A stretch of 64,000 nucleotides of DNA. Source: Natrinema marinum (lineage in GTDB: Archaea; Halobacteriota; Halobacteria; Halobacteriales; Natrialbaceae). The notes beneath the pieces are model-generated. The model had not been told where the DNA came from, did no database searches, and saw only the letters and a list, made by a program, of their open reading frames with translations. The DNA is taken from positions 1,674,001 through 1,738,000 of the forward strand of contig NZ_CP100763.1 of the NCBI RefSeq assembly GCF_024296685.1, given 5' to 3'. This document shows positions 12,145-25,800 of this stretch, one piece after another (the first letter of the stretch is position 1; each line of letters opens with the position of its first letter). The translations under genes were made by a program, and so were the position numbers.

Positions 12145-12534
12145 ATGGCGAAGGATACCGTCAGGTACCCTGACGACGTGGTCGCAAAGATCGACCAGCT
12201 CGTCGACGACGGTATGTTCGAAAGCAAATCCGAGTTCTATCGGTTCTCCGCGGAGTACGTTCTCACCTTACTCGATTCCGATCACGAGGTAAAGACCTTC
12301 AACTTCGACGAGATCAAGACCGAACTCGACATCAGCGAGCACGACCACGCCGAAGCGCTCGGGGCCGACGGCGGGACCCTCTTTCTCGACGCGGTGATCA
12401 ACGTCCGCAAACACGGCCTGCGCGGTGACTACGAGGCCGCCGAACGGTTCATCGACACCCACTACGACGAGACCGACCAGGAGTGTATCATCCTCGAGGA
12501 ACTGCTCGGTACCTACCGCGACGGACCGGCATAG
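12145..12534 (+). CDS. ribbon-helix-helix (CopG-like) protein
   Basis: A 129-residue protein. Residues 1-45 form a ribbon-helix-helix (DTVRYPDDVVAKIDQLVDD, then SKSEFYRFSAEYVL), a DNA-binding dimer fold. Residues 50-129 form a conserved acidic haloarchaeal extension (LFLDAVINVRKHG, GDYEAAERFIDTHYD) that could bind an effector or partner. The 5' region has an AT-rich stretch (acagtaattaacg) about 25 bp before the ATG, fitting a TATA box and a leaderless mRNA. It is convergent with cobQ. The regulated genes are unknown. Confidence 0.75.
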   Translation: MAKDTVRYPDDVVAKIDQLVDDGMFESKSEFYRFSAEYVLTLLDSDHEVKTFNFDEIKTELDISEHDHAEALGADGGTLFLDAVINVRKHGLRGDYEAAERFIDTHYDETDQECIILEELLGTYRDGPA

Positions 12535-12554
12535 CGCTCTCCCTTTCGGGTCCG

Positions 12555-14153
12555 CTACTCGAGTCGCCCGAACGGTTCGCCCAGCGCCGCCAGATCGACG
12601 TTCTCGCGAACCAGCCGCGCCGCTCGGTCGTAGGGTGTCCCGCGATTGCCGTCCGTCTCGGGCGCCGCCGACGGCTCGGCGTCGTCCTGCGCCGGCCGAT
12701 CGATCCCCGCGCTCGCCGCGACGGCCTCGAGAAACGCCGTCCGCACCGATTCGTTGTCGAATAGGCCGTGCAGGTAGGTTCCCAAGACTTGTCCGCTGGC
12801 CGTGCTCGAGTCACCCAGCGGCCGCGTTACGTCCTCGAGCGCCCGGGTCCGGCCGGCGTGGATCTCGTAGCCCGACGCGGTCCCGTCGGCCCCCGACAGG
12901 AGCGGCGAGGCCGAGCCGTCGACCGGGACGGTGGTCTGCTCGAGGCGTTTGTCGTCATCGAACCGAGTCTCGACCGGCAGCAGTCCCAGCCCCTCGACGA
13001 CGTCGGCGTCGCCGGTTCCCTCGAGCGCGGCGTTGGTGATCCGCTCGCCGAGCAGTTGATAGCCGCCGCAGACGCCGACGATCGGCCCGTCGAAGGCTGC
13101 GAGCGACTCGGAGAAGCCGGCCTCGTGTAGCGCCAGCAGGTCGTCGACGGTGTTCTTCGTGCCCGGCAGGACGACCGCGTCGGCGTCGACGCCCGCGAGC
13201 GGCGAAGCGGAATTGCCGTCGACCGGCACGTAGACCACCGAGACGCCCGGCTCGGCCGCCAGCGCCTCGAGGTCGGTTGCGTTCGAGATGCGGGGGAGTC
13301 GGGGCACGGCGATCCGAATCTGCCGATCCGCAGGAACGCCGTCGTCGTCGCCGACGACGCCCCGTTCTTCGCTGCCGGGGAGGCCGACGCTGTCCTCCGC
13401 CGGGAGACCGGGATCGTCGTAGGGCAACACGCCCAGAATCGGCACGCCCGTTCGGGACTCGATCTCCTCGATACCGGGCTCGAGCAGCGAGGGATCGCCC
13501 CGGAACTTCGTGATGAGCGCGCCGACGATCCGCTCGCGAAGCGCATCGGGGACGAGTTCGATGGTGCCGTAGAGGCTGGCAAAGGCGCCGCCGCGCTCGA
13601 TGTCCACCAGCAGAATGATATCCGCGTCGGCGAATTCGGCGGTCTCGACGTTCGCGAGGTCCCGATCGTGGAGGTTGATCTCGCCGATGCTCCCCGCGCC
13701 CTCGGCGACGATCACGTCGTTGTCCGCGGCCAGTCTGCGGTACGATTCCGCGGCCGCCTCGCGCGCTCGCTCCCAGTACTCCTCGTAGTAGGATCCTGCG
13801 GGCACGTGGTCGTGCGCTGTTCCCTGTACCACCAGCTGGCTCTCGCCGTCGCCGCGCGGTTTGAGCAGGACTGGATTACAGTCGGTGGTTGGAGTCGTGC
13901 GGGCCGCTCGAGCTTGGACGAACTGCGAGACGCCGATCTCGCCCCACTGGCCGCTATCGCTGTCGTCCGATTCGACAGGCTGTTGGCCCTCGATGTCCGG
14001 CCGCACGACGACACGGGCGTTGTTGCTCATGTTCTGGCCCTTGAACGGGGCGACGTCGATCCCGCGGTCGGCGAGCAGTCGGCAGAGGCCGGCCGCGACC
14101 GTCGATTTGCCGACGTGGCTCGCGGTTCCGGCGACGAGAAGCGTTCTGGTCAT
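12555..14153 (-). CDS. cobQ: cobyric acid synthase (CobQ/CbiP)
   Basis: A 532-residue two-domain enzyme that amidates the corrin ring side chains at b, d, e and g using glutamine and ATP. The N-terminal dethiobiotin-synthetase-like ATPase has its P-loop at [15 protein letters not shown] (residues 9-23) followed by [10 protein letters not shown]. The C-terminal class I-like glutaminase carries the nucleophile in [12 protein letters not shown] (about residue 370) and the His in YLHGLFDN near residue 473. A few low-complexity Ser/Asp inserts are typical of halophiles. The corrinoid adenosyltransferase at 21829-22518 is the other cobalamin gene here. Confidence 0.92.
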
Positions 14154-14358
14154 CCGCGTTGGGAGAGTGTTCGCGCGGCCGGTGGTATCGTCCTATCGGT
14201 TTGGTCGCCCTGCTGGCGTTCCGTTCGTGCAGGACGCCGTACTCGCCCATTACGGAAGCGGATCGACACAGTCTCGGAGTTCGTTCTCAGTATGCCAAGT
14301 AAAGAGTCGATCCGCGTCTGCGAGAATATTGAAAACAGCCGTTTGAATTCGGATATAG

Positions 14359-14366
14359 AGCATTTT
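14359..14366 (+). repeat. left target-site duplication of the intact IS
   Basis: The 8 bases AGCATTTT immediately precede the left terminal inverted repeat of the IS and recur exactly at 15885-15892, immediately after its right terminal repeat. Eight-base duplications are made by some IS5-group elements of haloarchaea. Confidence 0.85.
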
Positions 14367-14489
14367 GGCTCTGTTGAAATCCTGTCGTTCCAACATTTGT
14401 CTCGCTGGAATCGCCGTTAGGTAGGTGTGCGTATTCATCAGAGTTGTCGATCAGAATCCACAACTGTCTATAGAAAATACGGTACAAAT

Positions 14490-14987
14490 ATGCCCTCCCG
14501 CCGTACTGTCATTGGGTCACTTGGAGTTGCCGCTTTGGGTGGACTCGGTGCTTGGTTGTGGTTAACTCCCGCAACAGGATATGTCCAAGAAAAATCGATC
14601 GAGGCAAGATACCGAGAAGGGAACCAATTGCATAGTGAATCGGTTATGACCGTCACCCTCAGCAATCCACCCGGCTCCGACTCGCCTCAAATCAACTGGC
14701 TACACGATGATTGGCAGAACCGATTTGAATCCCCTTCTACCCCCGTAGTTTCTGAATCGTTACATAATGAGCTCCAACAAGTATACGAAGAGGTACGCTA
14801 TGTCGTCGGAGTTTGTAGCCCATCATGGGGTGAGGACGAGGAGACGACAGGCTGTTACAATGCGAGTGCAGGTCGAGAAGATTTCAACCGCGTTCAAGTC
14901 CACGACCGCGTGACCGCCTCTAAAACCACCAACGCTGGCCTCTCAATACACAGCGTTAAGGGAAAGTGGTCGTTCGATGAAATGTGA
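14490..14987 (+). CDS. IS passenger gene: Tat-signal protein of unknown function
   Basis: A 165-residue protein starting MPSRRTVIGS with a hydrophobic core (LGGLGAWLWL), which is a Tat-type signal or membrane anchor. The mature part (about 30-165) is polar, with two Cys residues (VVGVCSPSW and TTGCYNAS) that may form a disulfide outside the cell. Base composition is clearly lower in GC than flanking chromosomal genes. It lies wholly inside the terminal repeats of the IS and is convergent with the transposase. A TATA-like stretch (tctatagaaaatac) lies about 25 bp before the ATG. No family was recognised. Confidence 0.65.
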   Translation: MPSRRTVIGSLGVAALGGLGAWLWLTPATGYVQEKSIEARYREGNQLHSESVMTVTLSNPPGSDSPQINWLHDDWQNRFESPSTPVVSESLHNELQQVYEEVRYVVGVCSPSWGEDEETTGCYNASAGREDFNRVQVHDRVTASKTTNAGLSIHSVKGKWSFDEM

Positions 14988-15010
14988 CCGGTAGACTCTA
15001 TATCTAACGT

Positions 15011-15832
15011 TCAGAGTGCCTTGTCGATGTTGTGAGTGAGACAGCCGACAACGAGTTCACGGAACTGCTTCCACCAGTGCCGTGAGCGGACGAACACACC
15101 GTACTTGCGTTTGAGGCGAGAGTTTACCGTCTCGTTTTGACTGCGCTGTCCGTAGAGATCGGCATCCAACCGAGCATTCCACGCTTTGTGAAGAGACGAG
15201 AACTCGCGGTGCTTAATGAGCGGACGAACACCAGTTTCACGGGCTAATGCGCGAATCTTCTGGTCATCGTATCCCTTGTCGCCGAGGAGAACCGCTACTT
15301 CCCCGGTATTTCGCTTGATGAGTGACGGTGCGATTTGCGAGTCGTGTTTTCGTGTCGTCGTCACGTGTACGTCGATAATCGCGTTCGACCTCGTGTCTAC
15401 GAGAAGCGTGACTTTCAAGTGCTGAATCGTCAACTTCGTTCGCTTCGTATAGTGTTTTGAGGCGTGACTACGGTCAAACCCGGAAGCGTCGATCCCGACG
15501 ACACCGCTGGTCGGGAGCAGTGTGACCGAAAGGTTGAGCAGAACGCGCCAAACCGCCATATCGAGCCGGCTGAACGCCTTACACAACGTCGAAGGAGAGG
15601 GGAGTTCCTGAAGATCGAGGGCGCTCCAAATCCGAGGCATCTCGATGAGTTCGTCAAGCAGGGTTCGGTACGTCGTATTCTTCCGCACCTTGAGACAGAG
15701 CAAAACGATGTGTTGATGAAGTGTGTATCGTCGTTTCGAGAACTTCGAGGAGTAGCGAGCAACGGATCGCCGAGCCAAGTGCATCGCTTGCTCAACGAAC
15801 CGGAGTAGCCGCAACTTCGGGAGGGCTTCCAT
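15011..15832 (-). CDS. IS5 family transposase
   Basis: A 273-residue DDE transposase. An N-terminal helical DNA-binding region (1-100) precedes the catalytic core: Asp in VVGIDASGFDRSH, Asp in VLLGDKGYDDQK and Glu in QRSQNETVNSRLKRKYG (the Y-x2-R-x3-E-like block of IS5 elements). It is uninterrupted and lies inside matching terminal repeats, so it may be active. A related decayed copy lies beside it at 15945-16757 in the opposite orientation. Confidence 0.9.
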   Translation of the reverse strand: MEALPKLRLLRFVEQAMHLARRSVARYSSKFSKRRYTLHQHIVLLCLKVRKNTTYRTLLDELIEMPRIWSALDLQELPSPSTLCKAFSRLDMAVWRVLLNLSVTLLPTSGVVGIDASGFDRSHASKHYTKRTKLTIQHLKVTLLVDTRSNAIIDVHVTTTRKHDSQIAPSLIKRNTGEVAVLLGDKGYDDQKIRALARETGVRPLIKHREFSSLHKAWNARLDADLYGQRSQNETVNSRLKRKYGVFVRSRHWWKQFRELVVGCLTHNIDKAL

Positions 15833-15884
15833 CCGGTCAGACTACTAGACGAACCTGTATCTCTCTGAGGATTTCAACAGAGCC

Positions 15885-15892
15885 AGCATTTT
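15885..15892 (+). repeat. right target-site duplication of the intact IS
   Basis: The second copy of AGCATTTT directly follows the right terminal repeat. It is itself followed without any gap by the left terminal repeat of the neighbouring element (15893), so the intact IS inserted exactly at the edge of an older element. Confidence 0.85.
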
Positions 15893-15909
15893 GACTCTGT
15901 TGAAATCCT
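15893..15909 (+). repeat. terminal repeat of a second, related IS
   Basis: The sequence gactctgttgaaatcct differs by one base from the 17-bp terminal repeat of the intact IS and is followed by the same sub-terminal bases (cagggagttacagg). It marks the 5' end of the decayed plus-strand copy. Confidence 0.8.
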
Positions 15910-15944
15910 CAGGGAGTTACAGGATTGACCAGTAGTTTGACTGA

Positions 15945-16757
15945 ATGCAGGTCCTCACAAAGTCGCAGTTGCTTCAGTTCGTTGAGCAGGCGTATCACTT
16001 TGCTCGTCAAGCAACCGCTCGATACTCTTCGAAGTTCTCGAAACGACGGTACACACTCCACCAACACATCGTTTTGCCCTGCCTCAAAGTGCGGAAGAAC
16101 ACGACGTATCGGATGCTTCTCGACGAACTCATCGAGATGCCTCGGATTCGACGTTGTGTAAAGCGTTCAACCGGCTCAATATGGCTGTCTGGCGGGTTCT
16201 CCTCAACCTCTCCGTTACGCTTCTCCCGACCAACGGTGTCGTCGGGATTGACGCCTCCGGCTTCGACTGCAGTCACGCCTCGAAGCACTACACAAAGCGA
16301 ACGAAGTTGACGATTCAGCAGTTGAAAGTCACACTTCTCGTGGACACGAGAGTGAATGCGATCCTCGATGTGCACGTGACGACGACCAGGAAGCACGACT
16401 CGCAGATTGCGCCGTCGCTCATTAAGCGGAACACTGGTGGGGTAGAGGTTCTCCTCGATGCAAGGGGTACGACGATCAGAAGATTCGCACACTATCCCAT
16501 GAGGAAGGTGTTCGTCCGCTCATCAAGCACCGCACGTTTTCGTCGCTCCACAAGGCGTGGAACGCTCGGCTCGACGCCAATCTCTACGGGTAGCGTAGTC
16601 AGAATGAGACAGTGAACTGTCGGCTCAAACGCAAGTACGGTGCCTTCGTCCGTTCACGACTCTGGTGGAAGCAGTTCCGTGAACTCGTCATCAAATGCGT
16701 TGTTCACAACGTGGAACACGCCCTCGAAATTTCACGCGATGAGTACGAGCGTCTGTG
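15945..16757 (+). pseudogene. decayed IS5 family transposase
   Basis: Nucleotide comparison with the intact transposase shows the same gene with three lesions: a deletion of about 37 bp after MPRI (near 16150) that removes the WSAL...PSTL segment and shifts the frame; a 1-bp deletion near 16461 in the second Asp block (ctcctcgatgcaagg against ctcctcggcgacaagg); and an in-frame TAG at about 16591 before QNE. The C-terminus would be some 10 residues longer than in the intact copy. It is not functional, though it could be a substrate for the neighbouring transposase. Confidence 0.88.
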
Positions 16758-17083
16758 ATTCTGAGAGGAGCGGACTGCTGAATAGAGAAGGTGTACTCTG
16801 CAGGACTCAGTGATCCAAGCTCAACTTCACCGTTGAGCAACTGTTAGAATGGGCTTGTGACCCTACCAGTTGTTTCAGACTGCGGCGACGAATACGCGGG
16901 ATATGGACGAACAGGACAAGAACCCCGGGATATGCCTACTTGCCAACCAGGATGAGATACCGAGATTGCCAGTGCGAAGACGTAGCTGCGTAACGAATGC
17001 GAGACGGACGACGGCATCGAGGGCGTGTGTGGCGTATGGGGCGGGTGTCCGTCTCGGGAGGCGTCGTAGCGCCGGATGACCCG
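16758..17083. other. intergenic stretch without a recognisable gene
   Basis: These 326 bp follow the decayed transposase. No frame with convincing coding character is seen on either strand and no copy of the 17-bp terminal repeat occurs here, so the 3' end of the decayed IS is not preserved at the expected place. Confidence 0.5.
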
Positions 17084-17326
17084 CTATTTTTCGAGACTCA
17101 CGTCGCCGTTTGCGGTGACAGTGACTGTGTAGTCGCAGTACGTGAACGTCACAGTGCCGCCTGTCGGATTTTTGTTTGCGAACAACGAATCTAATGAGCC
17201 GGGGTCGATCACGTCGTATAGTTTCTCGGGCAGTTCAGTGGGGTGAATATTCATCTCCTTGGCGACAGCCTCGATTACGGCGTGGCTCCACGCATTGGCC
17301 GATGAAGTGGGTGATGACGGACTCAT
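17084..17326 (-). CDS. HalOD1-type output domain protein
   Basis: An 80-residue protein that consists of a single halobacterial output domain 1-like fold: a helix (SHAVIEAVAKEMNIHPTEL) leading to PEKLYDVIDPGSLDSLF, then three short beta strands (GGTVTFTYCDYTVTVTANGDVSL). HalOD1 domains are found alone or at the end of haloarchaeal response regulators, with unknown output. It follows the DUF7344-like regulator on the same strand after 50 bp; the pairing is common in haloarchaea and suggests a joint regulatory role. Confidence 0.75.
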   Translation of the reverse strand: MSPSSPTSSANAWSHAVIEAVAKEMNIHPTELPEKLYDVIDPGSLDSLFANKNPTGGTVTFTYCDYTVTVTANGDVSLEK

Positions 17327-17376
17327 GTATAGTATGGTATGCGACTACGCGTACGAAAGCAATCATCTCTCGGTCG

Positions 17377-17676
17377 TCACTCCGCGCCGTCGGACGCGAT
17401 ACATTCGAGCAATGGCCGAATCTCGTCGAACTGCGGCCCCTTGATGATTTGATCTGTCTTTTCGTTCCACTCGATGTAGCCGTCGTCTTCGAGCGTTGGC
17501 AAGTGGACGTGATACAGTTCGGTCTGCACTCGCTGCTCGGCGTCGGTCAGCACTGAGTGTCCTGTGGGGGATTCAAACCCTGCGTCCTGCGGATTCGATT
17601 GGAGAAGGGCGAGCAAGAGTGTACGACGCTGTTCGTGCGCGAGTGCCTCGAATGCCGAATCTGTATTCATTATCAT
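17377..17676 (-). CDS. DUF7344-like winged-helix regulator
   Basis: A 99-residue putative transcription regulator. FEALAHEQRRTLLLALL is the typical first helix pair of the haloarchaeal ArsR-like family, followed by the recognition region VQTELYHVHLPTLEDDGYIEWNEKTD and a short C-terminal helix (FDEIRPLLECIA). GTG at 17679, ATG at 17676 and ATG at 17670 are all possible starts. The last unit of the 28-bp tandem array supplies a TATA-like sequence about 40 bp upstream of the start, so the array ends in this gene's promoter. Confidence 0.75.
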   Translation of the reverse strand: MIMNTDSAFEALAHEQRRTLLLALLQSNPQDAGFESPTGHSVLTDAEQRVQTELYHVHLPTLEDDGYIEWNEKTDQIIKGPQFDEIRPLLECIASDGAE

Positions 17677-17703
17677 CACACAAATGCCGGGGAGACAATC
17701 AGG

Positions 17704-18427
17704 CTACCCTTTTCATATACAAACCGACCTTCTACCCTTTTCATATACAAACCGACCTTCTACCCTTTTCATATACAAACCGACCTTCTACCCTTTTCAT
17801 ATACAAACCGACCTTCTACCCTTTTCATATACAAACCGACCTTCTACCCTTTTCATATACAAACCGACCTTCTACCCTTTTCATATACAAAACCGACCTT
17901 CTACCCTTTTCATATACAAACCGACCTTCTACCCTTTTCATATACAAACCGACCTTCTTAACACCCTTTTCATATACAAACCGACCTTACTACCCTTTTC
18001 ATATACAAACCGACCTTCTACCCTTTTCATATACAAACCGACCTTCTACCCTTTTCATATACAAACCGACCTTCTACCCTTTTCATATACAAACCGACCT
18101 TCTACCCTTTTCATATACAAACCGACCTTCTACCCTTTTCATATACAAACCGACCTTCTACCCTTTTCATATACAAACCGACCTTCTACCCTTTTCATAT
18201 ACAAACCGACCTTCTACCCTTTTCATATACAAACCGACCTTCTACCCTTTTCATATACAAACCGACCTTCTACCCTTTTCATATACAAACCGACCTTCTA
18301 CCCTTTTCATATACAAACCGACCTTCTACCCTTTTCATATACAAACCGACCTTCTACCCTTTTCATATACAAACCGACCTTCTACCCTTTTCATATACAA
18401 ACCGACCTTCTACCCTTTTCATATACA
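17704..18427. repeat. 26-copy tandem array of a 28-bp unit
   Basis: Twenty-six head-to-tail copies of a 28-bp unit without spacers; the last is truncated to 18 bp. The unit contains tacccttttcatatacaaac followed by cgaccttc. Copies are essentially identical except for three indels: one extra A near 17890, four extra bases (taac) near 17960 and one extra A near 17989. On the minus strand each copy reads tttgtatatgaaaaggg, which has a TATA-box-like core. The array fills the space between the stop of the HTH_10 gene and the start of the DUF7344-like gene. It is not a CRISPR because there are no unique spacers. Confidence 0.95.
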
Positions 18428-18445
18428 GCCCGGTTCTGTATCCAC

Positions 18446-19102
18446 TTAAGGTCGGACTGTGGTGGCGGAGAGCGTGTTGCCGAGAACCTGCTTGACCCCT
18501 CCACGGAGACGGGAGCCGACGGCCTGCTGTGAGATGCCGAGTTCCTCACCGAGAGCTTCCAACGTGACCTCGCGGGGGGACTCGAAGTACCCCCGGTCGT
18601 AGGCAAGCACCAGCGCCTCTAGCTGAGTGTCAGTGAGGATAGCTTCGGTCGGCTTCTCGACGGGCGTGAGTGCGTGCAGCTCCGTTAGCGAGACCGGGAT
18701 GTCCAGCTCTCGACAGCGTCGTTGAAAGGCAGCGATGTCACTTCGAGCATCGCCGCGGATTTCGAACGTCCACTGTTGGTCTGTCCCGGTGGCCTCGATC
18801 AGTGGAACTCCTGTCTCCGCCAGTACCGTTAGCACGTCGTCGTAGTCTATCGTCCACTCAACGCGTAACAGGTACTCGTCCTCGACAGAGTCGATGACCC
18901 GAATCTCCTTCACGCCGGGGTGTTCGGTGAACGCACCCACAATGTCGTCGACTTCGGTACCCCGCACCCAGAAGTAGGGAATCACCACCCCCTGTGCGGG
19001 GACGAGTCGCTCCAGCTCGACCGTCACGTTCGGCAATTGCTTGAACACTGTCCCCAGCGGGAACTCGTCTGACGGAACCGTGAACGTCGCTTCAGTAGCC
19101 AT
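18446..19102 (-). CDS. HTH_10 family transcriptional regulator
   Basis: A 218-residue protein. The N-terminal part (1-155) is the BAT-type sensory fold (TFTVPSDEFPLGTVF, YLLRVEWTIDYDDVL, WTFEIRGDARSDIAAF). The C-terminus (about 160-215) is HTH_10: LTDTQLEALVLAYDRGYFESPREVTLEALGEELGISQQAV. This is the common single-gene haloarchaeal Bat-like regulator. The start MATEATFTVP at 19102 fits the family; an ATG two codons upstream is possible. It is upstream of the tandem array and the DUF7344-like/HalOD1-like pair on the same strand, and may regulate them. Confidence 0.82.
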   Translation of the reverse strand: MATEATFTVPSDEFPLGTVFKQLPNVTVELERLVPAQGVVIPYFWVRGTEVDDIVGAFTEHPGVKEIRVIDSVEDEYLLRVEWTIDYDDVLTVLAETGVPLIEATGTDQQWTFEIRGDARSDIAAFQRRCRELDIPVSLTELHALTPVEKPTEAILTDTQLEALVLAYDRGYFESPREVTLEALGEELGISQQAVGSRLRGGVKQVLGNTLSATTVRP

Positions 19103-19355
19103 GTCCATCCCATGGGCTTCCAGCTGAAAAGGCCTGCTACTGATTGTCTCGCGTTCTCGACCACCGTTCGCGGACGCATCATCTCTCGGCCCAGTATTCG
19201 GTACAAGGTCTATCCTGGCCCAACCAGTGGGTTCACCGATACGGTATCCGACGTCGGTACCAGCACCCGCTGTACGTAACACCGAATGCCGGAAAGTCAA
19301 ATGTCCGATACGCCTTCCTCTATTCAGCGCGGGTGCTGAAACCTATCACCGTTTG

Positions 19356-19372
19356 AGGATTTCAACAGGGCC
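19356..19372 (-). repeat. IS terminal repeat at the right edge of the island
   Basis: The complement reads ggccctgttgaaatcct, one base different from the terminal repeats at 14367 and 15868 and two from that at 15893. It is inverted relative to 15893 and could be the far end of a larger unit (15893-19372, 3480 bp) or a relic of another IS. The next 8 bases (tctacgat) do not match AGCATTTT, so no target duplication supports a simple unit. Confidence 0.7.
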
Positions 19373-19470
19373 TCTACGATCGAGTCAAGAAAACGGACGA
19401 GATCGTGCGATACGAAACCGCACCGCGACCCGATCGATAGGTTCGGACAAATTCGGCGTCCCCGAAGACG

Positions 19471-20955
19471 TTACTCCGTTCTGTACCGCGCGTCCCAGCG
19501 CGGCCCGGCGCGACTCGAGAGGACAATCCCGACGGTCCCCATGACGACCCCGCCGAGTCCGAGCGCAGCGACGAGTTCGAGCGGCGGAGGCACCACGACG
19601 AAGCCGGCGACCAGCGTCGGGACGAGCGCGACGGCGACGCCGACGGTGAAGGTCGCGAACCGAACGGCGTCGAAGAGGAACTCGTTGGGATCGAAGCCGG
19701 CGATGTAGACCGTGAGGCCGTAGTAGTACAGCGCGTAGCCGGCGAGCAACACCGCGCCGACGGCGGCGTCCGCGAGCGTCGCGTCGAACCAGACCACGGC
19801 CGCGAGGTAGGGGAGGGCGACCGCCGGCGCGCCGACGAGGACGAACGCGATCCGCTTGGCCCGGAAGACGTCCTCGACCGAGACGGGGTAGGTGAGGTAG
19901 GCCTCGAGCGAGTCGAACTGGGTCAGCCAGTTGTAGGTCGTAAACGCCGAGAGGCCGAGGACGCCGCCGAAGAAGATCCCCGGCGCTGGCGCGATGCCGG
20001 TGATCGAGTCGACGACGCCGACGAGCGCGGCGACCAGCGCGAGCAGGATCGTCGCCGAGACGAACGGCTTCCAGACGCCGCCCGAGGACCGGGCGAGGTC
20101 CAGCAACGTCTTCGTGACGAGGGGTGCGTTCTCGAGCGGGAGCGCTCCACTGAGCCGGGCGAAGCGATCGGTCGCCGTCCGCGAGGGACGGCCGTACGTC
20201 GGATCGTAGGCCGCCAGCGACGCCGTCGCGACGGCGACGGTGCCGAGTGCCAGCCCGACGGCGGCGGTCACAGGACCGTCGATCGGGACGAGGACGGCCT
20301 GAACGAGGCCAAGGCTCCCGGTCGCCCAGCCAGCGACGACGGCGGTCCCGACCGCCAGCCCGATGGCCCACGGCGGCGCGCCCCGGGTTCGGACGGCGAT
20401 CAGCGCGACGGTGGTCGCCATCCCGGCCGCGAAGACGAGACAGAGCGACAGCCAGAACAGGAGGACCGAGAGCGGCGTCGACGCGGAGAGGGGCTCGAGC
20501 GCGGCGCTCGCCAGCGCCATCGGCAAGACGAAGGCGACGCCGTAGAACAGCGCGTCCTTCAGGAGGAACACGCCGAGCAAGCGCCGCCGCGAGAGCGGCA
20601 GCGTGGTAGACGAGGAGAGTAGCAAGGAGAGCTTCCCGAAGACGTTCTCGAGCATGTCCGAGCCGGCGAAGCCCGCGGTGCCGCTGTAGAGCCCGAACCC
20701 GAGCGCCAGCGCGTGGAGGCCGCCGACGACCGTCTCCGGCGCGGTGCCGGTCTCGACCAGCGCGACGGTGGCGCTCACCGCGAGGACGGCGATGACGAGC
20801 GGAAAGGCCGCGAAGCGCCAGCCGCCGAACAGCTCGGTGTGCATCCGCCACTCCTCGCGAAAGAGGATCGCGAGCAGCCGCGGCGTCGAGAGCCCGGCTC
20901 CCGATCCGGAACGGGTCGTGCCGGCAGGCCCCGTCGGGTCCGTCGTCCCAGTCAT
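19471..20955 (-). CDS. ABC-2 type transporter permease
   Basis: A 494-residue integral membrane protein with roughly twelve hydrophobic segments, starting after a Gly/Thr-rich cytoplasmic leader (1-28). The first cytoplasmic element ILFREEWRMH is the amphipathic coupling region common to ABC-2 exporters. Its start overlaps the stop of the ATPase gene by 4 bp (ATGA type), so the two are translationally coupled. The substrate is unknown. Confidence 0.8.
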   Translation of the reverse strand: MTGTTDPTGPAGTTRSGSGAGLSTPRLLAILFREEWRMHTELFGGWRFAAFPLVIAVLAVSATVALVETGTAPETVVGGLHALALGFGLYSGTAGFAGSDMLENVFGKLSLLLSSSTTLPLSRRRLLGVFLLKDALFYGVAFVLPMALASAALEPLSASTPLSVLLFWLSLCLVFAAGMATTVALIAVRTRGAPPWAIGLAVGTAVVAGWATGSLGLVQAVLVPIDGPVTAAVGLALGTVAVATASLAAYDPTYGRPSRTATDRFARLSGALPLENAPLVTKTLLDLARSSGGVWKPFVSATILLALVAALVGVVDSITGIAPAPGIFFGGVLGLSAFTTYNWLTQFDSLEAYLTYPVSVEDVFRAKRIAFVLVGAPAVALPYLAAVVWFDATLADAAVGAVLLAGYALYYYGLTVYIAGFDPNEFLFDAVRFATFTVGVAVALVPTLVAGFVVVPPPLELVAALGLGGVVMGTVGIVLSSRAGPRWDARYRTE

Positions 20956-21716
20956 GGACCCGTCCCGTCGGTCGCCTCGAGCGTCGGCATGTCCCGCGCG
21001 GCCTCGCCCTCGACGCGCTCGAGGAACAGCTCGAGCAGCGATTCGTCGCTCCGGTCATCGGAAAGCGCCCGCTCGGTGACGAGTTGTCCGTCGGCGACGA
21101 TCCCCACGCGGGTGCAGATCTCCTCGGCGACGTCGATGTTGTGCGTCGAGACGAAGACGGCGTTGTCGCCGGCCGCGTAGGAGACGAGGAACCGTTTGAC
21201 TTGCTCTTGGACGAGCGGGTCGAGATTCGCCAGCGGCTCGTCGATGAAGACCACGTCCGGCTGGTGGAGGAACGCCTGCGTGATCATCACCTTCTGTTGT
21301 TGCCCGCGCGATAGGTCGGTGTGGAGCGTATCGAGCTTGCTCTCGAAGCCGAGGCGCTGCGCCCAGTCGTCAGTCCGGTCGGCGACCCGTTCGGCCGGCA
21401 GGTCCCGTACCTCGCCGACGAACTCGAAGTACTCCCGCGGCGTGAGGAAACTCGGCGGTGACCCCTGCTCCGGCAGGATTCCGACCTTCCGGCGCGTCTC
21501 GATCGGTTCGGCGACCGGATCGGTCTCGAGGACGCGAACCTCGCCCGCGTCCGGCCGGATCTGGCCGGTCAGCGTCCGAATCGTCGTGGTCTTCCCGGCA
21601 CCGTTCGGCCCGAGGAACCCGTAGAGCTCCCCGCGCTCGACGGTGAAATCCATTCCGGCGACTGCCTCGACGGCTCCGTAGGACTTCCGCAGTCCGTCGA
21701 CCCGAATGACACCCAT
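20952..21716 (-). CDS. ABC transporter ATP-binding protein
   Basis: A 254-residue ABC ATPase. Walker A is GPNGAGKTTTIRTL near residue 37, the signature LSRGQQQKVMITQAF near 134, Walker B VVFIDEPLANLDP near 158 and the switch His in VFVSTHNID near 190. The length and the DLPAERV/PREYFEFVGEV segments are typical of ABC-2/NatA-type exporters. The start at 21716 (MGVIRVDGLRKSYG) fits the family. It forms an operon with the permease gene that overlaps its stop. Confidence 0.88.
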   Translation of the reverse strand: MGVIRVDGLRKSYGAVEAVAGMDFTVERGELYGFLGPNGAGKTTTIRTLTGQIRPDAGEVRVLETDPVAEPIETRRKVGILPEQGSPPSFLTPREYFEFVGEVRDLPAERVADRTDDWAQRLGFESKLDTLHTDLSRGQQQKVMITQAFLHQPDVVFIDEPLANLDPLVQEQVKRFLVSYAAGDNAVFVSTHNIDVAEEICTRVGIVADGQLVTERALSDDRSDESLLELFLERVEGEAARDMPTLEATDGTGP

Positions 21717-21828
21717 TGAACGTCGAACCGTTCTCAGAAGCTGATAATAACTGTGTTGGTAGGATAGTAGTGACAACGCAGCAGCGATTCTCGAGTCCGG
21801 GGCCTAGCGGCCACGATGGGTGCGGTAA

Positions 21829-22518
21829 TCAGAACTCGGTCCCGCGGCGCGCCCGTTGGCCGTCGTCTATCGGATGTTTCACTTTCCGTACGTTTGTAAT
21901 TAGATCGGCGCGGTCCGCGAGGTAGTCGGGCTCGGCGTGGCTCCCCGAAAGGATCAACTCGAGGTCGTCGGGCTTCGCGTCGACGAGATCGAGCACGTCG
22001 TCCGCCGAGAGCAGGCCGCGATCGGCGGCGTAGAGGACCTCGTCGAGGATCAGCATGTGCATCCCCGCTTCGGGCTCGGCGTCGAGATCGATCGGTTCGC
22101 CGAGATCGGCCTCGTCGGCCGCCTCGAGGAGGTCCCGTGCGCGCTCGAGGCCCGCCTGGGCCTGCGCTTCGTGGTCGGCCTCGTCGCTGCCGTCGGCCAT
22201 GCCGTGCCAGCCGTAGTGGCCGAGGTTCTCGTAGCTAATCCCCGGCAGGGCGGCGATCGCGTTGTACTCGCCGCGGACGGCCTCGACGCTCGCGGCACCA
22301 CCTTTCATGAACTGAAGCATGTGGACCCGGTAGCCGTGGCCGGCGGCGCGCATCCCCATGCCGAGCGTCGCGGTCGTCTTCCCCTTGCCGTCGCCCCACC
22401 AGACCTGAACGAGGCCGAATTCCTCGGGTGCGGCCGGCTCGATGCGCTCTGCCTCCGGTGTCCGCCCCTGACCGGGCGTGCTCTCGATCGTGGACTCCGG
22501 CGTCCGATCGTCGCTCAT
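21829..22518 (-). CDS. cobA: corrinoid adenosyltransferase (CobA/BtuR type)
   Basis: A 229-residue enzyme that transfers the adenosyl group from ATP to cob(I)alamin. The P-loop is VWWGDGKGKTTATLGMGMRA near residue 40, followed by the family block LQFMKGGAAS. The Walker B-like strand is MLILDEVLYAADRGLL, and LILSGSHAEPDYLADRADLITNVRKVKHP is the conserved C-terminal region. An acidic N-terminal leader (1-33) precedes the core. The start at 22518 is chosen over a basic, out-of-family extension. The regulator at 22658 is divergent. Confidence 0.9.
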   Translation of the reverse strand: MSDDRTPESTIESTPGQGRTPEAERIEPAAPEEFGLVQVWWGDGKGKTTATLGMGMRAAGHGYRVHMLQFMKGGAASVEAVRGEYNAIAALPGISYENLGHYGWHGMADGSDEADHEAQAQAGLERARDLLEAADEADLGEPIDLDAEPEAGMHMLILDEVLYAADRGLLSADDVLDLVDAKPDDLELILSGSHAEPDYLADRADLITNVRKVKHPIDDGQRARRGTEF

Positions 22519-22657
22519 ACGCGGGCAGTCGGCTCGATCGTACATGTAGTTGCCCCACTCGACCGCCGGCGCGCGCCGTCGTACCGATCGGTGCCGTTCC
22601 AGTGACACTTGTAACCAAACGTGTCTTTAGGCTTCGCTCCCAACGTCGCTACACCTG

Positions 22658-23017
22658 ATGTCACTCGAGTTCCCCTCGTCGGACGACGCGCCCGATCTCG
22701 AGTGCGTGGTCGCCGCACTCGACGACGGCGACTGTCGTGAGATCATCGCGGTGCTCGAGGAGCCGATGACGGTCCACGAGGTCGCCGAGGCGACCGACCG
22801 GCCGCTCTCGACGACCTACCGCAAACTCGATCGGCTGTCCGAAGCCGGATTAGTCGAGGAGGCCGCCGGCGTCCAGCGCGATCGCCATCAGAAGGCCCGG
22901 TACGTCGCCAACCTCGAGCGAATCTCGATCGGTTTCGATGACGCCAACGAGCTGCGCGTCGATGTTGACCACGCGCCTGGGCTGAGTCTCTGGTCGGACA
23001 TCACTCGGGAGTTCTGA
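22658..23017 (+). CDS. ArsR-like winged-helix transcriptional regulator
   Basis: A 119-residue DNA-binding protein. A helix-turn-helix at about 30-70 (REIIAVLEEPMTVHEVAEATDRPLSTTYRKLDRLSEAGLV) is followed by a beta wing and a C-terminal strand region (RYVANLERISIGFDD). This is the short haloarchaeal ArsR/HTH_20 layout. It is divergent from the corrinoid adenosyltransferase gene with 139 bp between the starts. No ligand-binding Cys pair is seen. Confidence 0.78.
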   Translation: MSLEFPSSDDAPDLECVVAALDDGDCREIIAVLEEPMTVHEVAEATDRPLSTTYRKLDRLSEAGLVEEAAGVQRDRHQKARYVANLERISIGFDDANELRVDVDHAPGLSLWSDITREF

Positions 23018-23244
23018 CGGCCCCTGCGACGGCGTCGCCTCGTCCGGTTTCAGACGCCGACAACACCAGCAGTTCCGAAAAGAGCGAGTACGCTACCGGC
23101 CACGACATCGGCGTCCGTCGGCTCTCGTCCCTCGAACCCCCGAACGAACCCGCCGCGTCCGCTTGCCTCGCGTGGCTGAAGCGGTCTCTCGCAGTTCGAG
23201 ACACGGCACACGCCTTGATGGTCGCGTGTAGTCTCCCGGATGGT

Positions 23245-23808
23245 ATGAGCGCCGCCAACGACTCGAGTCACCGCTCCGACACCGGGAGCGAACTCGCCTT
23301 TCCGGCCTACGGCCCGATCGACGCCGCCCTCGGCTACGGACTGTTCTATCTCGTCGTCGACCGGGCGACGCCGACGATCGTGGCCGTCTTCACGGAAGTG
23401 CTTCCCGACGTGTCGCCGTCGCTGATCGGGCTGGGACTGGCGATGCTCCTCTGGGTCGTCCTGCTCGTGACCGTTCTCGACCAGCTCCGGCGACAACTCG
23501 CCGCGCTCGGGATCGTCACCCACGCGGCCGTCCGCCCCCGACGGTCGGGACGCTCGAGGCCGTCCGTGGGCCGACTGCTCCTGTCGCTGGCGGTCGCAAC
23601 CGTCGGGGGTCTCATCGCCGCGTGGACGTACGATCCGGCGCTCGAGGCCGTCGTCTCGCTGATTCGCGTCGTCGAGGTGGCCGACATCGACGTGCTCGTG
23701 CCCACCGAGGTCGGCCTCCTGCTCGTCTTTTTCGTGTCGTTCGAGATCGCGGCGCGGTCGGTCGACAAGCTGGTCATCGGCGGACTCAGGGCCCTGCTAG
23801 GGGGCTGA
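23245..23808 (+). CDS. membrane protein, hypothetical (187 aa)
   Basis: An integral membrane protein with four clear hydrophobic helices: about 27-47, 60-82 (LIGLGLAMLLWVVLLVTVL), 114-134 (LLLSLAVATVGGLIAAW) and 157-177 (GLLLVFFVSFEIA). A Ser/Arg-rich cytosolic loop lies between helices two and three. The start at 23245 (MSAANDSS) is preferred to the ATG 10 codons upstream. No domain was recognised and there is no operon partner. Confidence 0.65.
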   Translation: MSAANDSSHRSDTGSELAFPAYGPIDAALGYGLFYLVVDRATPTIVAVFTEVLPDVSPSLIGLGLAMLLWVVLLVTVLDQLRRQLAALGIVTHAAVRPRRSGRSRPSVGRLLLSLAVATVGGLIAAWTYDPALEAVVSLIRVVEVADIDVLVPTEVGLLLVFFVSFEIAARSVDKLVIGGLRALLGG

Positions 23809-23988
23809 GCGACCGATCGTCGAACGGGCCGCGGCGAGGTCGACACCGGGTCCGGGAGGCGACTGCACCGGTTCACTTTCGGATCGAGCAGTAGGCCACC
23901 ACCGACGTTCGATACAAACCTCGCAGTTGATCGAGCCATAATTGGATATTCGTAACCTCCTAATACGGCGAGCGATATATAGTACACA

Positions 23989-24450
23989 ATGACCTACGAA
24001 AACTTGGATGATGATCTCGTAAACGAGTTGATCGACAACGGTCGAACGAGCCTTCGCAGCCTCGCGGAAGAACTCGATGTCTCCGTCACCACCGTCTCTA
24101 ACCACCTTTCCGATCTCGAGGAATCGGGCGTGATCAACGGCTACACGCCGAAGATCGACTACGATGCCGTCGGCTACGACGTGACCGCGATCATGCAACT
24201 CAAAGCCGAGGGGAGCGCCTTGCCCGAGATCACCGAGACGCTGAAAGATCACAGCCAGATGATCTCGGTCTACGAGGTGACCGGTGACTACGACGTGATC
24301 GCTATCGGGAAGTTCACCGATACGGATGACATGAACGATCAGATCAAGAGTCTGATCACCGATCCCGACATCAACCAGTCGAACACGAGTATCGTCCTCA
24401 ACACGGTCTCCGAAAACAATCAGTTCGAACTCGAATCCGAAACGAGCTAG
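23989..24450 (+). CDS. Lrp/AsnC family transcriptional regulator
   Basis: A 153-residue regulator. The N-terminal helix-turn-helix (about 8-55: [40 protein letters not shown]) is followed by the RAM ligand-binding domain (about 68-145: [26 protein letters not shown]). The family forms octamers that respond to amino acids. The upstream bases (gagcgatatatagtacacaatg) contain a TATA box about 13-22 bp before the ATG, so the mRNA probably has a very short leader. No neighbour suggests its target. Confidence 0.85.
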
Positions 24451-25227
24451 TAACCGAACACGATCGGAAACGAGGATTCCCGTCGCCGCGTTCGCGAGTC
24501 GTGTGCCGGTTCGGACAGCGAACGGGCCGCCGTGTTACGGTGAGTTCCAACACAAGCATAGCTTTCGTCACCCGTGAGAGTCCGGTAAGAACGCATCGAA
24601 CGATAGGCGAGATTACCGGTCGTCCGACGGTCGCCTCTCAGCCCGCCTGACTGTTGTCGGAACGCACGCTCCGATCAAGCAGTATTTTCGCTCGTTTCCG
24701 TTTCGACCGGTCGTCCGAAAGACGTTCTTTTCGCTCGAGTCGCAGCCGACCGTTGCGACCGGTTCGGTAGGCGATACGATCGGTTTAGACGAAGCAGATC
24801 GCGCCGGTCGACCGGTTACGATTACTGACTGTTGCGAACGGGTACAAGCGGACTATCTCGCCGTCGCATGTCAAGCAGCCGTGAGGCCACGCTAACCCCC
24901 GTCCGTGCTTGTTACTCACCTCAGTTATTATCGCTCCGAACCGTCGACGCAATTCGATACTTCTCTCGGCGAGTCAGACCGGCAGGAATGTCGGTACTGC
25001 GGCAATCATGTTATATCCGTATCAATAAGTTCTTTCGAGTATGGAAGGATCTGCAACCGAAGTCGCCTCCAGACCGTAAACAGAGGCTGCTGAAGCTTTA
25101 TCGAAAGTAACCACTCGCAGTGCGTCCCCGTCCTGCTAAATTAACTGATACGGAAAGGAACAGTCGCTGGCGTTTATTCGACACCTCAGCTAACGTCTTA
25201 GCGTCCCTGATGGGGCATGAGAGAATA
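24451..25227. other. 777-bp intergenic region
   Basis: No confident gene is present. One short plus-strand frame ending at 25093 encodes a CRYCGNHV motif that resembles the first knuckle of haloarchaeal small zinc-finger proteins, but the second knuckle is not in register; it may be a broken relic (about 24990-25093). The rest lacks coding character. The last 100 bp probably carry the promoter of the gene at 25228. Confidence 0.45.
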
Positions 25228-25800
25228 ATGAGTGAACAAGAAACGACAGGCGACTCGAGGCGGTCGTTCATGGCGAAGGGCGCCCTCGCGACGGGCGCGC
25301 TGACGCTGGGGACGGGCGCATTCGGCACGGCCACAGTCGGTGCACAGGAAGATCAAGTAGCGGTATTCGCGAGCGAACTCTATCCGGGTGCGGATTTCGA
25401 CGTTCTCGCCCAACTTCAGGCGAGCACGACAGTCGATGTGCTACAGTTGGACGGGGAAACGGTGCCAGAGATCTCCCAGCCCGACGAGTGGAACGGACAC
25501 ATCATCCGATACGATATCGGCCAGCAATCGGGTATCACGTCGTTCCTGTTCGCGCGCGGGACGAGTCTGAGTTCCGGTGACAGCGGAACGCTCGGCGACG
25601 ATGCGTCGGTGCTGAGCGCCGATCTAAACCTCATGAACACGTCGCTGGGCGGTGGCGGCGGTAACGGCGGCGGTAACGGTGGCGGCGGCGGTAACGGTGG
25701 CGGCGGTAACGGTGGCGGCGGTAACGGTGGCGGCGATATGAACGGCGGAAACGATACCGGCAACGGCAACGAGACGGCCGCTGGAAACGGAGGTGAATAA
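25228..25800 (+). CDS. Tat-exported beta-rich protein with Gly/Asn-repeat tail (paralogue 1)
   Basis: A 190-residue exported protein. The Tat signal spans about 1-40 (DSRRSFMAKGALATGALTLG, cleavage near VGAQ). The core (about 42-140) carries STTVDVLQLDGETVPEISQP and ends STSL-like after LSADLNLMN. Residues about 141-190 are almost only Gly and Asn, encoded by near-perfect repeats. The following gene encodes the same core without a signal, 2 bp after this stop. Some databases call similar proteins calcium-binding, but no acidic loop is obvious; function unknown. Confidence 0.75.
   Translation: MSEQETTGDSRRSFMAKGALATGALTLGTGAFGTATVGAQEDQVAVFASELYPGADFDVLAQLQASTTVDVLQLDGETVPEISQPDEWNGHIIRYDIGQQSGITSFLFARGTSLSSGDSGTLGDDASVLSADLNLMNTSLGGGGGNGGGNGGGGGNGGGGNGGGGNGGGDMNGGNDTGNGNETAAGNGGE
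25650..25737 (+). repeat. GGC/GGT-AAC repeat tract inside a CDS
   Basis: Tandem repeats of about 9-15 bp (ggtggcggcggtaac type) encode the Gly/Asn tail of the exported protein. Such tracts change length readily and give a flexible, possibly surface-exposed tail. Confidence 0.85.

Follow-up and report, generated by a model that had tools for sequence, protein, structure and literature searches.

A tandem array of a conserved promoter core in a mobile haloarchaeal regulator cassette, a candidate multi-site operator in Natrinema marinum

Haloarchaeal regulators of the Bat type combine REC, PAS or GAF domains with BAT and HTH_10 domains (PMC5847659). In activation of the GvpE type, a dedicated regulator works with a short haloarchaeal cis-element beside the TATA box and BRE, and the site is located upstream of BRE/TATA (PMC8241225). 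Bacterial promoters with variable-number tandem repeats show copy-number-dependent expression, and their units differ in number among close relatives. Transporter IS elements, annotated in the present case as IS5 family, carry passenger genes. The locus analyzed here in Natrinema marinum shares features with each of these systems. Its regulator has the BAT and HTH_10 domains of the Bat type by Pfam, but it is short, no REC, PAS or GAF domain was found in it by Pfam, and its proposed site lies between the TATA box and the transcription start rather than upstream. As in the GvpE system, a short haloarchaeal cis-element beside TATA/BRE is paired with a dedicated regulator, which is predicted here; however, the regulator and the position relative to the TATA box are different, and no such tandem array has been described there. 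The promoter units vary in number among close relatives as in bacteria, whereas the host is archaeal and the unit is a conserved candidate regulatory core that appears nearly private to one promoter. Like a transporter IS, the element has terminal inverted repeats (GGCTCTGTTGAAATCCTC), a DDE transposase, passengers inside and, in several relatives, 8-bp target duplications; in contrast, the passengers are transcription regulators with their own candidate operator, and in several copies no transposase is seen. A literature search, with subscription journals largely outside it, found no archaeal precedent for promoter repeat arrays.

The window, which denotes the whole 64,000-nucleotide stretch of contig NZ_CP100763.1 that was analyzed, contains a tandem array that fills the interval from the stop codon of a BAT-HTH_10 gene to the start codon of a DUF7344 gene; the two genes share the minus strand (Table 1). 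The first-pass annotation described 26 spacer-less copies with three indels only, and this description was borne out by Tandem Repeats Finder (period 28, 25.6 copies, 98% matches, score 1394) and by a direct count of 26 cores, which read CCCTTTTCATATACA on the plus strand and run head to tail. The core-to-core spacing is 28 throughout, save at the three junctions listed in Table 1, where it is 29, 32 and 29, respectively. The sole further change is found in the copy adjoining the BAT-HTH_10 stop codon, which reads GGCTGTATATG instead of GGTTTGTATATG. The G+C content is 39% in the array versus 64% in the window. A CRISPR array was ruled out, as the copies stand head to tail without unique spacers. 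Elsewhere in the window, Gly/Asn-rich GGCGGTAAC repeats occupy positions 25648-25748 within a predicted ORF (25120-25800, plus strand).

Table 1. Coordinates of the array, the cassette genes and the associated mobile elements in the window
Feature	Position	Strand	Remarks
8-bp duplication AGCATTTT	14359-14366 and 15885-15892		flanks the second IS element
Second IS element of the same type	14367-15884	-	intact DDE transposase at 15011-15832
186-aa ORF	14427-14987	+	in the second IS element
Left terminal inverted repeat of the cassette element	15893-15911	+	GACTCTGTTGAAATCCTCA
IS5-type (DDE) transposase of the cassette element	15945-16758	+	reading frame disrupted (two overlapping frames)
Stand-alone HalOD1 gene	17084-17326	-	third gene of the cassette
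DUF7344 gene	17377-17670	-	97 aa when read from the conserved ATG; winged-helix fold predicted
Conserved TGA	17699-17701	-	21-23 bases past the core start; kept in 84-98% of loci; putative transcription start region
Promoter-proximal core copy	17708-17722	-	TTGTATATGAAAAGG; occupies the position of the relatives' single conserved core
Tandem array	17704-18427	-	26 x 28-bp unit GGTTTGTATATGAAAAGGGTAGAAGGTC (minus-strand reading); junction indels at 17875, 17932 and 17964
BAT-HTH_10 regulator gene	18446-19102	-	218 aa; immediately precedes the array
Right terminal inverted repeat of the cassette element	19355-19372	-	ends GGCC

With up to three mismatches, the unit was found nowhere else in the 3.77-Mb single-contig genome (control 0), and the search of other haloarchaeal genomes that had been suggested for the 28-mer yielded none in the 124 others of the same family. 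The 28-bp array with 26 copies is therefore private to the Natrinema marinum genome among the genomes searched. The exact 28-mer had no match in genome_contigs, and neither an 18-mer core nor a degenerate two-copy pattern matched anything in viral_contigs. The exact unit was sought across the whole family, while the array-pattern searches took in a 392-genome sample of the order together with the families of the genomes G351 and G324; since these were searches of a sample, other arrays may exist. A plasmid search with the 16-bp array described below, run with the low-complexity filter on, gave no match. The number 26 is the value in the assembly, and short tandem repeats are error-prone; an assembly artefact in copy number nevertheless has only a very slight chance, because the genome is a single contig, internal variant copies interrupt the array, and five relatives likewise possess more than one copy. 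All copy numbers given here are assembly-based, and short-read assemblies may hide arrays. In one metagenome-assembled genome, the BAT-HTH_10 stop codon is the very end of the contig (L140), as though the assembly broke at a hidden array.

The domain assignments made at first reading proved correct. The protein upstream of the array contains BAT (PF15915, E 9.6e-18) and HTH_10 (PF04967, E 4.2e-16) domains above the cut-off, and DUF7344 (E 1.4e-9) and HalOD1 (E 1e-21) are likewise recognized by Pfam. An identical three-gene set, in the order BAT-HTH_10, DUF7344, HalOD1, is present in N. caseinilyticum. The dN/dS ratio is 0.38 for both BAT-HTH_10 and DUF7344, and the passenger genes look intact and constrained. 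Between the window's cassette and that of N. caseinilyticum (locus L119), dS amounts to 0.075 for HalOD1, 0.295 for BAT-HTH_10 and 0.204 for DUF7344; the far fewer silent differences in HalOD1 hint at recombination. The genome encodes at least seven further BAT-HTH_10 paralogues. Neither the ORF list nor Pfam, applied to selected neighbours (12145-24450), showed a rep or par gene near the array. The notion that the array once served a plasmid as an iteron, a partition site or a centromere-like site was thus not sustained, and we assign it a negligible probability. Short tandem repeats do stand beside genes for DNA-binding proteins, and the N. caseinilyticum copy resides on a plasmid; however, the locus lies on a large chromosomal contig in Natrinema marinum and several relatives, the cassette genes are not replication or partition genes, and the single-copy form is an element of an ordinary promoter.

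As had been surmised, an IS-type element brought the array in. The cassette is situated between the terminal inverted repeats, and the same arrangement is observed in N. caseinilyticum, Halogeometricum limi and the genome G198; the IS5 family name is taken from the annotation in relatives, including the N. caseinilyticum copy. An intact transposase is found in the N. caseinilyticum copy and in the neighbouring second element, which faces the cassette element head to head across 8 bp. The window's cassette element is flanked by AGCATTTT on one side and TCTACGAT on the other, and a target duplication was not detected for it. Target duplications in relatives comprise ATCTAGCC, ATTCTTTA, TCCCTTCC, GGGAGGGA and GGACTTGT. 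The 8-bp flanks are equal or have one difference in 8 of the 31 inverted-repeat pairs (7 distinct places) that were tested among the retrieved loci, against a chance value of about 0.01 (25/65536 per pair); the G315 element, with its duplication GGACTTGT, comes in addition to those 31 pairs. Judging from its disrupted transposase, the window's cassette is most aptly described as a relic of a transporter IS or as a non-autonomous copy of one. Compared with the N. caseinilyticum locus, the segment 16789-19267 of the window is inverted relative to its own transposase and right end.

No transposase was seen in the copies of Halorussus ruber (L174), Halegenticoccus soli (L195), Haloterrigena (L120) and G315; the L174 element holds a BAT-HTH_10 gene and a DUF7344-like gene. 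These elements are apparently non-autonomous mobile regulator cassettes, and the existence of relatives that have no transposase at all means that movement might occur in trans. Single-copy cassettes also reside within such elements (L174, L195 and L120). The idea that multi-copy arrays are limited to transposase-encoding copies was dropped, as G315 has two copies without a visible transposase and no bracketing element was found around the six copies of G324 in the 6.5 kb examined. The elements of L174 (2833-4325), L195 (2845-4051), L120 (3781-5225) and G315 (locus L255) are each bounded by inverted repeats with 8-bp duplications (0-1 mismatch) and contain BAT-HTH_10 plus a downstream gene. 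A related element in the genome G111 (L130, 216-3125), with the duplication TCCCTTCC, carries a predicted lipoprotein, an Lrp/AsnC-type regulator, DUF7344 and HalOD1, and the composite element of G198 (L224) includes a similar Lrp/AsnC and DUF7344 module.

The form of the locus in relatives reveals what the unit consists of. In about 60 haloarchaeal loci, one copy of the element stands just past the BAT-HTH_10 stop codon, inside a gap of approximately 70 bp that separates it from DUF7344. Alignment of 62 elements resolved three blocks in register: TAAAA at -10 to -6, the core TTGTATAnnAAAAAG at 0 to 14, and TGA at 21 to 23. The first block, with the variants TTAAA, ATAAAA and TATAAA, is typical of a TATA box and, in the roughly 60 single-copy relatives, is separate from the element, lying about 10 bp upstream of the core, while the TGA follows about 30 bp past the TATA box. 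From the conserved TGA, transcription in Natrinema marinum would start at around 17700, and the DUF7344 start common to relatives is the ATG at 17670 (...ATAATGAAT); the start near 17691 given in the first-pass annotation is revised accordingly. Exactly one core match is present in 51 of 58 loci from many genera, and the core lies about 672-677 from the ATG in most loci. No strong core was detected upstream of BAT-HTH_10 among the loci examined. Across 29 genomes of the genus, the core with at most one mismatch gave 12 matches (control 0), of which BAT-HTH_10 loci account for 10, and by this measure it is nearly private to the BAT-HTH_10/DUF7344 site. More distant BAT-HTH_10 genes (L037-L042 and L188-L193) have a different motif in a similar placement, TTTAAACCC..TGTATAATCAG, several of them before HalOD1-like genes, and this motif is possibly a sister operator.

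More than one core occurs at the site in six genomes, and, as anticipated, the number differs between relatives. Apart from the 26 cores of Natrinema marinum, there are four in N. caseinilyticum (L119), three in G198 (L224) and two in Halogeometricum limi (L128), each with a 29-bp unit; in another family, G324 has six, five at 16 bp and one more beyond a linker, and in G315 there are two with a unit of 17 bp. A 2.9-kb block is 96.6% identical between N. caseinilyticum and H. limi, yet the former has four copies and the latter two. The BAT-HTH_10 proteins of the six array-bearing loci group as a single clade (support 91/84) spread over four taxonomic families, which is most simply explained if the multi-copy state arose once and then underwent turnover. 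In every copy of every array, the core is kept while the linkers have diverged. The Natrinema marinum unit consists of the core and a linker bearing a decayed TATA remnant. Across the arrays, inner linkers contain TAAGGA, TAAGTA or AAGGT in place of the single-copy TAAAA, and the cores are intact. The sequence TAAAAACGG survives only ahead of the first copy, and the inner 29-bp linkers, TAAGTACGG and TAAGGACGG, resemble a decayed form of it. Because one variant junction of the Natrinema marinum array, GGGTAGTAAGGTCGG, resembles the 29-bp linkers, the 28-bp unit probably descended from an older 29-bp unit.

The array is an amplified piece of the DUF7344 promoter region, as initially proposed, but the further claim that a TATA core had been amplified was not upheld. 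Since the unit holds only a decayed TATA remnant and another lineage multiplied a 16-bp core alone, the sequences indicate that the core, and not the TATA box, is what was amplified, and that its copy number is labile. These observations make it highly improbable that each unit is a complete promoter and that the array multiplies transcription starts. Such an arrangement would suit the TATA-like look of TTTGTATATG, the closeness of the 28-29-bp period to the TATA-to-start distance, and the original 29-bp duplication, which can be read as including a TATA box (TAAAAACGG...). However, the units were found to lack a TATA box, and (T)AAGGT stands against the relatives' separate TAAAA about 10 bp upstream; the 16-17-bp units multiplied in G324 and G315 leave no room for a TATA box and a start; and the TGA at the putative start is present only after the last copy. 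A canonical, well-placed TATA box is absent from every array copy in Natrinema marinum, and the promoter with 26 copies may therefore be weak or even inactive.

This loss also fits the main rival to an operator array, neutral slippage, in which a slippage-prone promoter element expands without effect or with mild harm and its copy number drifts as in a satellite. The near-identity of the copies supports the earlier view that the expansion was recent, and it is what such an account predicts; the unit and copy number are moreover unique to one genome, and short direct repeats (GG/GGG) lie on either side of the core. Conversely, the multi-copy state has lasted through the whole BAT-HTH_10 clade, across four families and with periods of 16, 17, 28 and 29, each copy of each array keeps the core although the linkers diverge, and the downstream genes are intact. 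Near-identical copies do not distinguish between selection and recent neutral expansion, and recent homogenisation weakens the argument against neutrality. Neutral slippage consequently stays the main rival, with a real though minor share of the probability.

If the core is an operator, the protein that reads it may be encoded beside it. Of all 218 BAT-HTH_10 columns, 181, 201 and 196 follow the identity of core bases 8-9 (GA or not) most closely, and all three lie within HTH_10; residues 201 and 196 lie in or beside what is presumably the recognition helix, ISQQAV[G/A]SRLR[G/R]G. On a tree of the BAT domain only, the core class needs six changes, with two independent pairs on well-supported branches. 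In most pairings, those two pairs agree for residues 181 and 196, and in about half of them for 201; this is not significant. The association of core variants with recognition-helix residues is suggestive but not significant after correction for relatedness, and shared descent could explain it, given the few independent changes. DUF7344 is a second candidate reader of the core because its predicted model (mean pLDDT 78) is an ArsR/SmtB-like winged helix; a Foldseek search returned no match at E <= 0.001, the best being 0.027.

From the observed position and conservation of the core, its amplification in differing copy number and the mobility of the cassette, we moderately favour the reading that the array serves the HTH_10 regulator encoded in the cassette as a multi-site operator, through which DUF7344-HalOD1 is controlled. 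According to this model, the mobile haloarchaeal cassette encodes a BAT-HTH_10 regulator, then a predicted winged-helix DUF7344 protein and then a HalOD1 protein, and its promoter between the first two genes has a single conserved core of 15 bp, TTGTATAnnAAAAAG, placed after the TATA box and before the putative start. In one cassette clade, slippage or unequal exchange has multiplied the core to 2-26 copies. The cassette's HTH_10 protein would bind the core, several bound sites beside a weakened TATA box would change DUF7344-HalOD1 expression by repression or activation, and copy number might set the strength or the demand for regulator. The position of the core between the TATA box and the putative start, set against the GvpE site upstream of BRE/TATA, counts against this operator reading. 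Alternatively, the copies could serve mainly as decoys that titrate the HTH_10 regulator from other targets and do not act on the adjacent promoter. Many identical copies in one place would suit this role, and the paralogues mentioned above might share the site; with only one non-array site within two mismatches of the core in the genome, however, there are few visible targets to titrate from, and 2-4 copies in relatives would titrate little, which renders a decoy array improbable.

An extension of the operator reading, which we hold tentatively and consider doubtful, is that the cassette combines a regulator with an expandable array of its own operator, whose copy number, from 2 to 26, would be a heritable, reversible expression dial spread between haloarchaeal families by transposition. 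The locus and its relatives form a natural dose series, with 1, 2, 3, 4, 6 or 26 copies of one conserved regulatory element from archaea, and the cassette that carries it crosses families. With this series, two questions become testable: which sites the abundant short BAT-HTH_10 and DUF7344 proteins, so far little studied, bind, and whether expression in archaea responds to the number of promoter repeats, as is possible in bacteria. The findings also point to elements bounded by inverted repeats, several without their own transposase, as a family that spreads transcription regulators among haloarchaea, and a likely protein-binding site with readily changing copy number could tune the cassette that they carry.
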